This document shows positions 7,973-23,209 of a DNA stretch of 36,075 nt, piece after piece. The translations under genes were made by a program, and so were the position numbers. The DNA is taken from IMG/VR virus record IMGVR_UViG_3300032271_001027, positions 1-36,075 of that record, one strand, 5' to 3'. Every line of letters starts with the position of its first letter. The first letter of the stretch is position 1. The stretch comes from a virus. The notes beneath the pieces are model-generated. The model saw only the letters and a list, made by a program, of their open reading frames with translations. It was not told the DNA's origin and did not search any database.

Positions 7973-9139
7973 ATGAGCGCAAAAGTTGTTGGCAAATTCA
8001 AACATCAGGGCAAATCCTACAGCTTCTATCAGAAGCCTGGGAACCCCAATCTCTACATCCGCGTCCAGCACCAGGGAAAGGCCCGATGGAAATGCCTCGA
8101 TACCCCTGACAAGAAGGCGGCGGCGATCCGTGCCGGGATCTGGATTGATTCCCTATTCAACAGCAAGTGGGATGTGCTTGAGACGTTAAAGACCCGAAAC
8201 GAGTTTGCCACCATTGGCGAGATCATCGACGTATTCCTTGCCAACATCCGTCACCTTGGGATCAAGCACGCCACGGCCAAGGGATATGTCGTGAGCTTGA
8301 AGAACATTCTTGGCGATGCCTTGGGCTCAGAGGATCCCTTATCGTTGAAGTCCACCGTGCTCACCGGCGAGACGTTAAACAAATTCGTTGCCGTTTCGCG
8401 CCAGGCACGACGGCCCGATTGGTCCATCTCGGGCCAGATCGGACAGGCGCGTAGCATTTTGAAGGAACGCGAGGGCCGCATGGATATTTACAATGCTTTG
8501 CGGTTACCCGATCTCACCACTTGGAGGAATGCCAAGTGGGCTTTTGAGACCAATATCCGTCGCGGGTTTGTCCCTTTCACGACTCAGCAGGTCCTCGACC
8601 TTGAGGCAGGGGCCGCCCAGCTCTATGACGAACGCAATCCCGTATGGATTTCCTACACCCTCATGAGCCTCTATGGATTGCGTAACAGCATGGTTAAGAA
8701 CCTCAAGAAGAGCGACTTTACCATCACCGAGAGCGCCATCACGTTTATTGTCAAGGGAGACTATGCCGAGGCCAAGGCCGTGGAGCACACTATTGACAAG
8801 GAGACCTACGAGAAGATCACGACCTTCTTTGACGATGGCGAATATGTCCTGCCAGGGTCGAAAACGAAACGCCAGCACGCCAGCAATACCGAGCTAAACA
8901 ATTTCATGCGGCGCTTTGTGGATCGATCTACTCAGGGAGAGCGTAAAAAAGCGTATTTGCTTCGTAGACAGGCCGCCACCGTCATGGCCGATGCCAAGGA
9001 CATCTTTGCCGCGCAGGCCATGTTGGGGCATAAAAGCGTCAAGACAACCGAGAACGATTACGGTCCCCGCGTGCTTCGCAGTCCTGGCATTTCTCCTGAC
9101 GACATCCGGAAGTATTACCGGATCGAGAGGCAGGCCTAG
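7973..9139 (+). CDS. int: Tyrosine integrase
   Basis: This 388-residue site-specific recombinase is expected to integrate and excise the phage genome. Residues 1-65 form an N-terminal arm-binding-like part, about 75-190 a SAM-like core-binding domain, and about 200-388 the catalytic domain. Catalytic residues visible are Arg I in LYGLR (R237), Arg II in YLLRRQAAT (R331/R332), the second His in LGHKSVKTT (H353) and the nucleophile in ENDYGP (Y363). The usual HxxR histidine before Arg II appears replaced, with Tyr328 in that position if R331 is the active Arg. The gene ends convergently with the last virion gene, their stops sharing one CTAG. Confidence 0.93.
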   Translation: MSAKVVGKFKHQGKSYSFYQKPGNPNLYIRVQHQGKARWKCLDTPDKKAAAIRAGIWIDSLFNSKWDVLETLKTRNEFATIGEIIDVFLANIRHLGIKHATAKGYVVSLKNILGDALGSEDPLSLKSTVLTGETLNKFVAVSRQARRPDWSISGQIGQARSILKEREGRMDIYNALRLPDLTTWRNAKWAFETNIRRGFVPFTTQQVLDLEAGAAQLYDERNPVWISYTLMSLYGLRNSMVKNLKKSDFTITESAITFIVKGDYAEAKAVEHTIDKETYEKITTFFDDGEYVLPGSKTKRQHASNTELNNFMRRFVDRSTQGERKKAYLLRRQAATVMADAKDIFAAQAMLGHKSVKTTENDYGPRVLRSPGISPDDIRKYYRIERQA

Positions 9140-19453: not shown

Positions 19454-21574
19454 TTAGGATTCGGTGCGGGCCAGGCGGCTCGGATCGCTGGTCACTGCGG
19501 CGTCGGCACTGATGGCGCGGATGGTGGGACGCCCGCCCGAGGTGGAGACCTGGATGTCGAGGTATTCGGCCGTACGGCGGATCGGGGCCTTGATCGTGTA
19601 GTCGTTGTCAGCTTCGGCATTGGTTACCGAGGCAACTTGGGTCGTGCTATCGCGGTCGGTGGCAATCGCCGTGACATTCACCGTAGAACCTGCCGGAAGG
19701 TAGGAGGAGACCGTGACCGAGTTGAGGCGCTTGTGGTTGAGCTGACCGTAGAAATATCGCCGCGTGGTAAGCGATCCGACCACACCAACCGAGGCATCAC
19801 CACTGGTCGCGTCATCGGCGGCCGAGTTGTATTGTTCTAAAAGGTAAAGCAGGCCCGTGGTGGAGGCAGCATAGAGTCGGCGCTGGGTGGCCGTGGTCGT
19901 GACGTAATCGCTCACCACCAGGCGGTCGAGGGAGAAGGGGTAAGTGTCGACCGATTCCCAGGCCTCGTTGAGCTGATTGTAGATCAGCAGCGTATTGTTG
20001 CTGGTGGAACTTCCGGTCGGAATGGCCAGATAATACCGATTGTTAAAATACAAGCCGCAGGCATTGGAGACGGTCGCCGGATTGATCGTTGAGAGGATGT
20101 CGGCAATCGGCTCGGAGAGCGGTAGCGTGTTGCCGCGCAGCGCAAGGTCGAGCTGGGTATTGTCGAGCCGATAGACCCCGTTATCCGAGAGGAAGTAGAT
20201 GTAATTTCCGGCCGTGGTGACGGTGTTGCGGGCATTGCACCCGATTTCGTTGGTCAGGATCTGCAAGAACGAGGCGGCCGGATCAATCGAAACGCCATCA
20301 CTTTTTAAAACGATTTTTCCCAAGTAAATTGATTTGCGCAGGAACACGATCACTTGACCATTGGCATAGGGGTGGATGGCGGTAATGTAATCATTGGAAC
20401 CGACATTGGTTCGGAAACTCTTCAGCAAGGGATCGAAGTTCGTAGGATCCAGAACATCGGAAACGATCAAGGCATCCCGCGCATTGGCAATGACGAGTTG
20501 GTTGTTGTAGAAGGTTGCAATCGCCCCATAAGGACTACTCAAATAACTATAAGTTGCACCGAGTGGTGAAGTGCCGGTCGGCACTCGCACGAAATTCGTT
20601 GAGGTCTGCCCATCCCAGACCAAGGGGCAGCAGACCCGCTGGGCGAGCAGGTAGGTCGTGACCCCGCTCGATCCATTGGCGGCGGTGGCCGAGGGCACGG
20701 CAAAGGTGAATGTCGTCGTCCCGGTGACCGTGATGACAGCATCGAGGTTAAACCCTGCCTGATCGCTGCCCGAGATCCGCACGACTTCGCCGGTAGCATA
20801 CCCGTGGGCGGCGGCGGTCGTCGCCGTGGCTGTGCCGGAGCTCTGGGTCAGGGTGGAGATTGTCTTGGTGGCCTCATTGCGCCACCGGAAAATGAAAACT
20901 TGATCGAAGGCCTGGACAACGCTGACCGCGTCGGAATTCTGGATCGATTCCGTGATCGGGGAAACCGGATAGCTCTTGGTGATGACGGTTGGCCCGGACG
21001 AGGTGGAACGCCAGAGGTAGGCCTGCGTCGATCCGGCCAGGACGACATACTCATTGGAATTATCAAAGCGCGGGGAGGAATAGACTCCGGCTGCGTAGAT
21101 TCCGGCCGTGGTGCTGCTAGATTGGAGCACGGGATACCCGACCGATCCCCCGCTGGAGGCGGAGGGAGATCCCGAGACCGCATAGGTGAACGTGGTCGGT
21201 GTGGGAACCGTCAGGATTGTGAAAGTGCCGTTGTAGTTGGCAATACCGACACCCAAAATTTTAACCTGCCAACCGGCCAACAATTTGTGGGCCGTGGACG
21301 TGGTGGCCGTGGCGGTGTTGGAACTTTGCGAGATTGAGGAAATCGTGGCCGAGGTCACCGTGAAGGGCACGGTCACAATGGTGCCTGAGGCCGAAATTCC
21401 CTGGGTGAGTCGTTTGGCGCCTGCCCGCGTTGTGGCAATGCCTCGGTCGAGGCGAATGTTGGAGGCGGCCTGCAGGTATCCGGCCGGGATCGTAATCGGG
21501 TTGCGGCGGGATTGGAGTCCGATGAACGAAGTGTCACCGTCACGGACAATGGGGCTGGAGAGTGGTCCGGGCAT
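19454..21574 (-). CDS. Tail nozzle / tail stabilisation protein, 706 aa
   Basis: The 706-residue protein starts PGPLSSPIVRDGDTSFIGLQSRRNP. Features include LDRGIATTRAGAKRL (about residues 42-56), a beta-rich middle with NARDALIVSDVLDPTNFD, GNYIYFLSDNGVYRLD and FNNRYYLAIPTG, and LLIYNQLNEAWESVD. This series of 'D-G-Y/L--', display-like strands is characteristic of podovirus tail tube or nozzle beta-propeller proteins (T7 gp12 / P22-like role). It closes the tail and contacts the fibres. The gene lies directly before the fibre gene, which supports this. No enzyme motif is seen. Confidence 0.82.
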   Translation of the reverse strand: MPGPLSSPIVRDGDTSFIGLQSRRNPITIPAGYLQAASNIRLDRGIATTRAGAKRLTQGISASGTIVTVPFTVTSATISSISQSSNTATATTSTAHKLLAGWQVKILGVGIANYNGTFTILTVPTPTTFTYAVSGSPSASSGGSVGYPVLQSSSTTAGIYAAGVYSSPRFDNSNEYVVLAGSTQAYLWRSTSSGPTVITKSYPVSPITESIQNSDAVSVVQAFDQVFIFRWRNEATKTISTLTQSSGTATATTAAAHGYATGEVVRISGSDQAGFNLDAVITVTGTTTFTFAVPSATAANGSSGVTTYLLAQRVCCPLVWDGQTSTNFVRVPTGTSPLGATYSYLSSPYGAIATFYNNQLVIANARDALIVSDVLDPTNFDPLLKSFRTNVGSNDYITAIHPYANGQVIVFLRKSIYLGKIVLKSDGVSIDPAASFLQILTNEIGCNARNTVTTAGNYIYFLSDNGVYRLDNTQLDLALRGNTLPLSEPIADILSTINPATVSNACGLYFNNRYYLAIPTGSSTSNNTLLIYNQLNEAWESVDTYPFSLDRLVVSDYVTTTATQRRLYAASTTGLLYLLEQYNSAADDATSGDASVGVVGSLTTRRYFYGQLNHKRLNSVTVSSYLPAGSTVNVTAIATDRDSTTQVASVTNAEADNDYTIKAPIRRTAEYLDIQVSTSGGRPTIRAISADAAVTSDPSRLARTES

Positions 21575-21586
21575 GGGGTGGGGAAA

Positions 21587-22180
21587 TTAGAGGCGCTGGA
21601 GGTTGAATCCTGGCGCAGCCTTTCCGGGCCAGAACGTGTAGCGGAAATCCTTGGAGGAACTTCCCCCCGTCTTCGGGTCGAAGTTGATGCCCAACTCGCG
21701 GGCGGCGGCAATCGAGGCCTCGCCCAGGTGGGAGGCCGGGCCGAGGTCGGCCACGACGCAGGAGACCTTCGCACCCGTGAATTGGTTGAGGATTTCGGCA
21801 CGGCAGCCGAGCACGATGCCGGTACACATCCGGGCAATCGGGCCGGGGACGACGATGAAGGGAACTTCTTCGGAGTTAATGTAGCGGCGCGGATCGTTGG
21901 TAGCGTAATCCGAGTGCTGCAAACTTGTCGTGGAAATGTAATATCCGGGTGCGGGGTCATCCTGACCCTGCAGGACGGGGTAGCCTTCCTGATCGGTGAC
22001 AATTCCCCACCAGTTGCCGGGGTGTCCCGCATTCTCCAGGTAGTCGAGTCCTTGGCCGTGCGGCCCATAGGCGCGGGGTGACCCATCGGCATCGATGCAG
22101 AGTTCGGTCAGGTACTGGATCGACCCATCCTCGGCCTGCATGATCGGCTTCCCATTGATGTTGCAGATGAAACGGCTCAT
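21587..22180 (-). CDS. GH75-like endolysin (chitosanase fold), 197 aa
   Basis: The 197-residue protein looks like a member of glycoside hydrolase family 75 (fungal chitosanase family, PF07335). It shows IDADGSPRAY (29-38), GLDYLENAGHPGNWWGIVTD (44-63), DPAPGYYISTTSL (75-87), DPRRYINS (96-103), VPFIVVP (106-112), ADLGPASHLGEASIAAARELG (144-164). Asp145 and Glu154 lie in the positions of the GH75 catalytic pair. No signal peptide is present, and the gene is linked by ATGA to the holin-like gene, so it should reach the wall through the holin. The expected target is the wall glycan (peptidoglycan), which is inference. Confidence 0.82.
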   Translation of the reverse strand: MSRFICNINGKPIMQAEDGSIQYLTELCIDADGSPRAYGPHGQGLDYLENAGHPGNWWGIVTDQEGYPVLQGQDDPAPGYYISTTSLQHSDYATNDPRRYINSEEVPFIVVPGPIARMCTGIVLGCRAEILNQFTGAKVSCVVADLGPASHLGEASIAAARELGINFDPKTGGSSSKDFRYTFWPGKAAPGFNLQRL

Positions 22181-22431
22181 GGGGTTGATCCTCCGTCATT
22201 CTTCTCACCGAACTTGCTGGCGGCCTTGGCCCCGGCCAACACACTGACTGTCCAGTTGATGACCGAGACCACGCCGGGGGGGAGGTCGATCAGGGTGCCA
22301 AGCCGAGCGTGCTGGACCAGCACATAGACAATCGCCCCGACCGCGCAGAAGGTGGCGACGCCAAGCAGGATCCGGATGCTCGATGGCGTGCCGTTGGCCT
22401 CCTCAAAAATGCGTTGGATCCATTGAGTCAT
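22177..22431 (-). CDS. Holin-like membrane protein, 84 aa
   Basis: The 84-residue protein has two hydrophobic segments (about 20-42, IRILLGVATFCAVGAIVYVLVQ; and 53-68, VVSVINWTVSVLAGAK) with a short loop and a charged C-terminus. Size, membrane layout and ATGA coupling to the endolysin fit a class II holin. No sequence family is certain. Confidence 0.75.
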   Translation of the reverse strand: MTQWIQRIFEEANGTPSSIRILLGVATFCAVGAIVYVLVQHARLGTLIDLPPGVVSVINWTVSVLAGAKAASKFGEKNDGGSTP

Positions 22432-22439
22432 GAGCGTGG

Positions 22440-22982
22440 TCAGGGAATGAAGCGCGAACCGTAGGCCGCAATCGTGCGGGAGAGGATGAAACCGGCAGCA
22501 CCCCCGGCCGCGAGCAGTAGGAAGGGTGCAACGATTCCAGCACCAAAAGGCAAGTGTGCTGCTGAGTCGCCAAAGACCCTCAAGGTCACAATGGCAGCAG
22601 CAACAGCAAAGAGGATTGGGTAGAAGTCGCGTTCTCTGGCGGTTTGGTGCAGGGACTTGATGAGGTTTGCAATCTTGTTGTCCTTGTCGACAAGTTCGTG
22701 CTGGGCCGTGGCCAGGGTGACGGATTGGGCATCGACCTGGGACGCGTAGGCGGCAAGGGATTCTTTGGCCGAGTCAATGTCGTCGGAAAGTTCTTCCACC
22801 TCGCCACGATTTGTTGCGGGGACTTCAGTTTTCAACCGCTCAGCACGGAGGCGGGCCGAGTTGACGGCATCGACCACGGGCGCGGCCGAGGGAGTCAGCA
22901 CGGCCTCATGGCGTTGCTCATGGGCGCAGGCGGTCAGGCCAAGCGCGGCCAGCATCAGCAGGATAAGGGATCGCAGATTCAT
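22440..22982 (-). CDS. Lipoprotein with coiled coil and C-terminal membrane spans, candidate spanin
   Basis: The 180-residue protein starts with a lipoprotein signal (LRSLILLMLAALGLTACAHE; lipobox LTAC, Cys19). A coiled-coil region (about 35-115, AERLKTEVPATNRGEVEELS and after) follows, then two hydrophobic stretches (about 117-135 and 145-172). A lipid-anchored N-terminus, periplasmic coiled coil and C-terminal inner-membrane anchor is the plan of unimolecular spanins (T1 gp11), though those have one span. It sits inside the lysis cassette. A plain lysis-cassette lipoprotein is the alternative. Confidence 0.72.
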   Translation of the reverse strand: MNLRSLILLMLAALGLTACAHEQRHEAVLTPSAAPVVDAVNSARLRAERLKTEVPATNRGEVEELSDDIDSAKESLAAYASQVDAQSVTLATAQHELVDKDNKIANLIKSLHQTARERDFYPILFAVAAAIVTLRVFGDSAAHLPFGAGIVAPFLLLAAGGAAGFILSRTIAAYGSRFIP

Positions 22983-23209
22983 TTGACTTCGAGCTTCTGC
23001 TGGATGGCCAGGACATCGCTTTGAAGGCGGTCGAGCATTTGCGTTTTCTGCCCGGCAATGTAAACCGACATAAAAATTTGCAAAACCACGGCCGCGCCGA
23101 TGGTCTTGAGCATGGCGGAGTTGTTGGCGGCGGACTTGGCCCGCTCCTCAACAATCGCCCGCAGGATGGCGATGTCTTCCCTTAAGGCGCTGACCTCGTC
23201 GGCTGACAT
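22979..23209 (-). CDS. Small single-span membrane protein of the lysis cassette, 76 aa
   Basis: The 76-residue protein has a helical, charged N-terminus (SADEVSALREDIAILRAIVEE), one membrane span (about 36-54, IGAAVVLQIFMSVYIAG) and a coiled-coil-like tail (LDRLQSDVLAIQQKLEVK). It overlaps the spanin candidate by ATGA. An antiholin, a second holin or a pinholin are possible. Confidence 0.7.
   Translation of the reverse strand: MSADEVSALREDIAILRAIVEERAKSAANNSAMLKTIGAAVVLQIFMSVYIAGQKTQMLDRLQSDVLAIQQKLEVK

Follow-up and report, generated by a model that had tools for sequence, protein, structure and literature searches.

A GH75-family gene in a phage lysis cassette very probably encodes the endolysin

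The window, by which we mean the whole stretch of 36,075 nucleotides analyzed here (IMG/VR virus record IMGVR_UViG_3300032271_001027), is a 36-kb phage contig with an integrase, a DnaB-like helicase, and virion genes, and without tRNA or Rfam matches. The integrase is of the tyrosine type (positions 7973-9139), and the phage may thus be temperate. The GH75 gene (Table 1) has an ATG start with GGAGG upstream as ribosome site, and the structural gene, one homologue of which is annotated as 'head closure', begins 12 bp past its stop. The sequence-only reading had put the GH75 gene in the endolysin position, and this is borne out, as it overlaps the preceding holin-like gene, which itself follows the genes for the lipoprotein and the coiled-coil membrane protein. 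It therefore sits within a lysis cassette, the holin and spanin roles of its neighbors being predicted ones. The holin-like protein, which has no family match, is a putative holin by size, hydrophobicity, and place, and it is conserved in six GH108 phages, two L094-type phages, and three other GH75 phages. A relative in the Tunturi_5 phage (40% identity) was considered as a guide to this protein and rejected, as the match stands among unrelated genes. The lipoprotein is a candidate spanin that gives only a weak match to a PHROG Rz-like spanin (E 0.067), and homologues of the coiled-coil protein occur in GH75 and GH108 cassettes at 44-87% identity.

Table 1. The GH75 gene of the window and the genes around it.
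Feature	Positions	Strand	Details
Virion structural gene, 706 aa, downstream edge of slot	19454..21574	minus	PHROG virion structural proteins
GH75-family endolysin (predicted)	21587..22180	minus	197 aa; D30, D32, D145, E154; no signal peptide; phmmer + AF2/Foldseek
Holin-like protein, 84 aa, hydrophobic segment(s)	22177..22431	minus	4-bp overlap with GH75 start
Lipoprotein, spanin-like; lipobox LTAC, coiled coil, C-terminal membrane segments	22440..22982	minus	conserved in sister cassettes
Small coiled-coil protein, 76 aa, one hydrophobic segment, cassette member	22979..23209	minus	homologues in sister cassettes

The product of the GH75 gene is a GH75-family protein and a direct homologue of V-Csn, a viral GH75 chitosanase from a soil virus (PDB 7TVL-7TVP; Wu et al. 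2022, PMC9485262). The assignment is based on sequence homology to V-Csn, the four active-site acids, and the predicted fold. In a phmmer search of all solved structures, V-Csn was the only convincing match (E 1.5e-35), the next being an unrelated protein at 8e-4. The sequence-only reading had offered the PF07335 profile as a check, and this check failed: a single-sequence Pfam scan gave no match to PF07335, or to any other family, at E≤1, although V-Csn itself passes above the cut-off (9.5e-7). PF07335 takes its name from fungal chitosanases and performs poorly on phage members; membership of the window protein therefore rests on V-Csn homology, and the profile is best regarded as a detection tool, not as a biological criterion. 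Taken at face value, it would have wrongly denied the protein a place in GH75, since it misses a sequence whose homology to V-Csn is strong. The same earlier reading described GH75 as a fungal family; fungal members exist, but the family also has bacterial and phage branches (PMC9485262). Scans of the protein against PHROG and NCBIfam gave no match, and 50,697 deposited phage genomes contained no homologue of either it or V-Csn. The gene is under purifying selection when compared with that of the related phage L103 (dN 0.107, dS 1.6; 85% protein identity).

The protein contains the motif ADLGPASHLGEAS and retains all four GH75 active-site acids (D-D-D-E), with D30, D32, D145, and E154 aligning with D34, D36, D148, and E157 of V-Csn. 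The Asp145/Glu154 pair, noticed from the sequence beforehand as a GH75-like signature, is thus at the expected positions and corresponds to the catalytic residues D148/E157 that were mutated in V-Csn. D32, D145, and E154 are invariant across 24 phage sequences, and the residues D50, N54, and T91 proposed for the subsites of V-Csn are D46, N50, and T85 in the window protein. An AlphaFold2 model was obtained with pLDDT 94.7 and pTM 0.90 from an alignment of 24 phage relatives, and this is the model used here (five sequences only gave pLDDT 69). It shows the two-domain double-psi barrel fold, and a Foldseek search with it returned the five V-Csn entries as its top five matches (E about 1e-23, TM 0.87; 7TVL: E 7.6e-24). 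Separately, a GH75-like fold was found by Foldseek (E 8e-5) in the BFVD entry A0A8S5Q6Z6 (Myoviridae sp. ctTRu92, 'PGRP protein'), which is maybe another fusion of an amidase with a GH75-like domain.

The strongest evidence that the GH75 gene is an endolysin comes from gene replacement. Viral contigs were searched using the neighbors of the GH75 gene, and not GH75 itself, as queries, and the sister contigs, which have the holin-like protein (57-82% identical), the lipoprotein, and usually the coiled-coil protein, were sorted by the gene that follows the holin-like gene. This slot holds GH75 in the window and in L103, L006, and L007, the last two with a more distant holin. In six contigs (L092, L093, L097, L099, L102, and L106) it holds a GH108 lysozyme with PG_binding_3 by Pfam, the GH108 score of L099 being just below the cut-off in one search and at the cut-off in another. 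The L092 enzyme, which is a PHROG 'endolysin' (6e-25), is unrelated by sequence to the GH75 protein. The GH108 enzymes (PF05838 with PG_binding_3; L092, L097, L102, and others) have the slot, the cassette, and the size (~192 aa) in common with GH75 and differ in having a lysozyme-type catalytic domain and a peptidoglycan-binding domain of their own. A third type of protein, 176-178 aa in length, takes the place of GH75 in L094 and L098 (L094:4230-4760 and L098:4252-4788); it has no Pfam, PHROG, NCBIfam, or PDB match and is a candidate endolysin family. The exchange extends to relatives that were recognized by the structural gene. In L101, an M15 peptidase and a GTA_holin_3TM lie just before a structural gene 60% identical to that of the window. 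In the more distant L107, L110, and L111 (structural gene 34-38% identical), the order is two small membrane proteins, Amidase_2, one small gene, and the structural gene.

The occupants of the slot are also mutually exclusive. Whole-record searches were run with positive controls, which for GH108 (PF05838) were known positives. Of 20 slot-sharing records, four have GH75; none of the four has GH108, no record with GH108 or M15 has GH75, and GH75 never shares one of these records with another tested lysin. The earlier suggestion of an endolysin in place of a lysozyme is therefore upheld, and slot exchange together with mutual exclusivity supports the conclusion that GH75 fills the place of known peptidoglycan-degrading enzymes. 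In the window record, which may be incomplete, profile searches gave no match to phage lysozyme (PF00959), Amidase_2 (PF01510), M15_3 (PF08291), SLT (PF01464), GH108 (PF05838), M15_4 (PF13539), or GH25 (PF01183); it is possible that a further lysin was overlooked in the 36 kb or lies outside the contig.

A second, independent exchange is seen around V-Csn itself. The V-Csn fragment is encoded without a change in locus L021, which therefore shows the neighborhood of V-Csn: its gene comes after genes for two small membrane or coiled-coil proteins. In L123, located through the small membrane gene as query, an 82-aa membrane protein, which matches its counterpart in the GH75 phage L017 at ~86% identity, is followed by a GH25 lysozyme (1e-26), and a search of that record found no GH75. 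L021 and L123 have both flanking genes in common (53% and 41% identity), and at this site a GH25 lysozyme is exchanged with GH75. L119, a relative of the V-Csn clade found by a search with the downstream gene, has neither GH75 nor a recognized lysin at the position. A phylogenetic tree resolves most phage GH75 as two distinct all-virus clades, both well supported (100/97 and 100/100), and the slot exchange is hence seen in two lineages. V-Csn and the window protein are homologous over the whole domain (~40% identity), with the same fold, D-D-D-E acids, and subsite residues, and both have small membrane proteins upstream; V-Csn differs in its longer C-terminus, in its separate all-virus clade, and in having been published as an auxiliary metabolic chitosanase. 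On this same evidence, V-Csn too is in all likelihood an endolysin.

Other GH75 loci are in keeping with a lysis role. Phage L022 has GH75 in fusion with a peptidoglycan-binding domain (PG_binding_1, 3.6e-9), and in L005 a GTA_holin_3TM (2.4e-20) lies just upstream of a GH75 copy that is split between reading frames. A small membrane protein is encoded upstream in 14 of 23 viral GH75 loci vs 24 of 178 other genes (odds ratio 10, p 2e-6), a count that comes from a crude gene caller and from related loci that are not fully independent. By the same gene caller 9 of the 23 have no such gene just upstream, and many of the GH75 viral contigs are fragments. Bacterial GH75 proteins (Bacteroidota, Myxococcota, and others; L031-L070) have the same domain and active-site motif, and some are fused to Amidase_2 or SLH. 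Most of the bacterial proteins have a lipobox or a hydrophobic export signal at their start, whereas the phage proteins start directly with the domain. One bacterial protein, from a Bacteroidota (L031:363-4124), combines Amidase_2, fn3 repeats, a GH75-like domain, and a type IX secretion tail and is possibly a secreted wall-degrading enzyme. The Paenibacillus proteins L045, L048, L049, and L050 have no signal peptide, unlike most other bacterial GH75. An NlpC-type domain suspected in L065 was not confirmed by Pfam. In the L028 record, a phage that also has GH75, an Amidase_2 match lies inside a 1576-aa open frame (G024:C1:9127-9453) and is probably a virion-associated lysin.

We conclude that the GH75 gene of the window is, with high probability, the endolysin of this phage. 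We propose that the glycosidase would be made without a signal peptide and kept in the cytoplasm until the neighboring holin-like protein releases it, whereupon it would cut the beta-1,4 links of the host wall glycan. Cleavage would follow an inverting mechanism on a double-psi beta-barrel, with E154 as the acid and D32 as the likely base, and D30 and D145 would sit in the binding site. In the history of the otherwise conserved lysis cassette, GH75 would have taken the place of a GH108 lysozyme, unless the exchange ran the other way. The probable substrate is peptidoglycan. V-Csn binds the free amines of GlcN via D36 and D148 and cleaves chitosan (PMC9485262), which makes de-N-acetylated peptidoglycan a possible target, and the amine-binding pair is retained in the window protein as D32/D145. 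The target is thus possibly a glucosamine-containing, de-N-acetylated peptidoglycan, and the enzyme either aims at this form or also accepts the acetylated one. A precedent for such specificity in a wall enzyme is DslA of Bdellovibrio, a deacetylation-specific lysozyme that is specific for GlcNAc-deacetylated peptidoglycan (PMC7511926) and has chitosanase-like features; it differs in its lysozyme (GH23-like) fold, in being a predator exit enzyme, and in having no homology to GH75. The literature that we found contains no GH75 enzyme shown to cut peptidoglycan, and in the literature available to us there was no earlier claim of GH75 as an endolysin. A 2025 review warns in general terms that endolysins can resemble metabolic glycosidases and lists the GH75 chitosanase as validated.

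It is unlikely that the enzyme, while associated with lysis, is aimed at a glucosamine-rich envelope or capsule polymer other than peptidoglycan, with lysis being carried out by another, undetected enzyme. V-Csn is specific for a glucosamine polymer, and this, like the open reading frames of the window that have no assigned function, would fit the idea. Against it, the slot otherwise carries just one peptidoglycan hydrolase at a time, and searches with the tested families turned up no further lysin.

We consider it very unlikely that the gene has the auxiliary metabolic role published for V-Csn, in which its product would degrade environmental chitosan and feed the host. V-Csn does have endo-chitosanase activity at pH 5, in assays described on a dyed chitosan (AZCL-chitosan), and a metabolic role was proposed by its authors (PMC9485262). 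However, the window protein has no signal peptide for export, its gene is located in a lysis cassette and exchanges with GH108, GH25, M15, and Amidase_2 lysins, the contig that carries it retains none of the tested lysin families, and a phage relative (L022) joins GH75 to a peptidoglycan-binding domain. The text of the V-Csn study makes no mention of a holin, an endolysin, or peptidoglycan, and the study screened against lysozyme profiles (PMC9485262), a procedure that would keep a GH75 lysin since such a lysin is itself GH75. The endolysin assignment contradicts the published one. A virion-associated lysin that acts at entry instead of exit, which the neighboring virion structural gene might suggest, is highly improbable given that GH75 lies with the spanin-like gene and the holin-like gene, overlapping the latter by 4 bp, and is exchanged for an enzyme that PHROG annotates as an endolysin.

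Beyond the assignment of the window gene as an endolysin, we tentatively put forward a broader proposal that is, on balance, somewhat doubtful. GH75 may be a widespread class of phage endolysin, V-Csn included, comprising at least two separate lineages and specific for glucosamine-rich (de-N-acetylated, lysozyme-resistant) peptidoglycan, which is swapped with GH108 or GH25 to match the modification of the host wall. V-Csn, whose structure has been solved, is cited as a rare functionally validated auxiliary metabolic gene of a soil virus, and a total of 142 viral GH75 genes have been counted as auxiliary metabolic genes (PMC9485262; cited in PMC12713726). Should GH75 prove to be a lysis enzyme, V-Csn would fall as an example of viruses that help their hosts to eat chitin, estimates of viral carbon cycling would change, and endolysins would gain a new catalytic class, one that is possibly suited to lysozyme-resistant walls.
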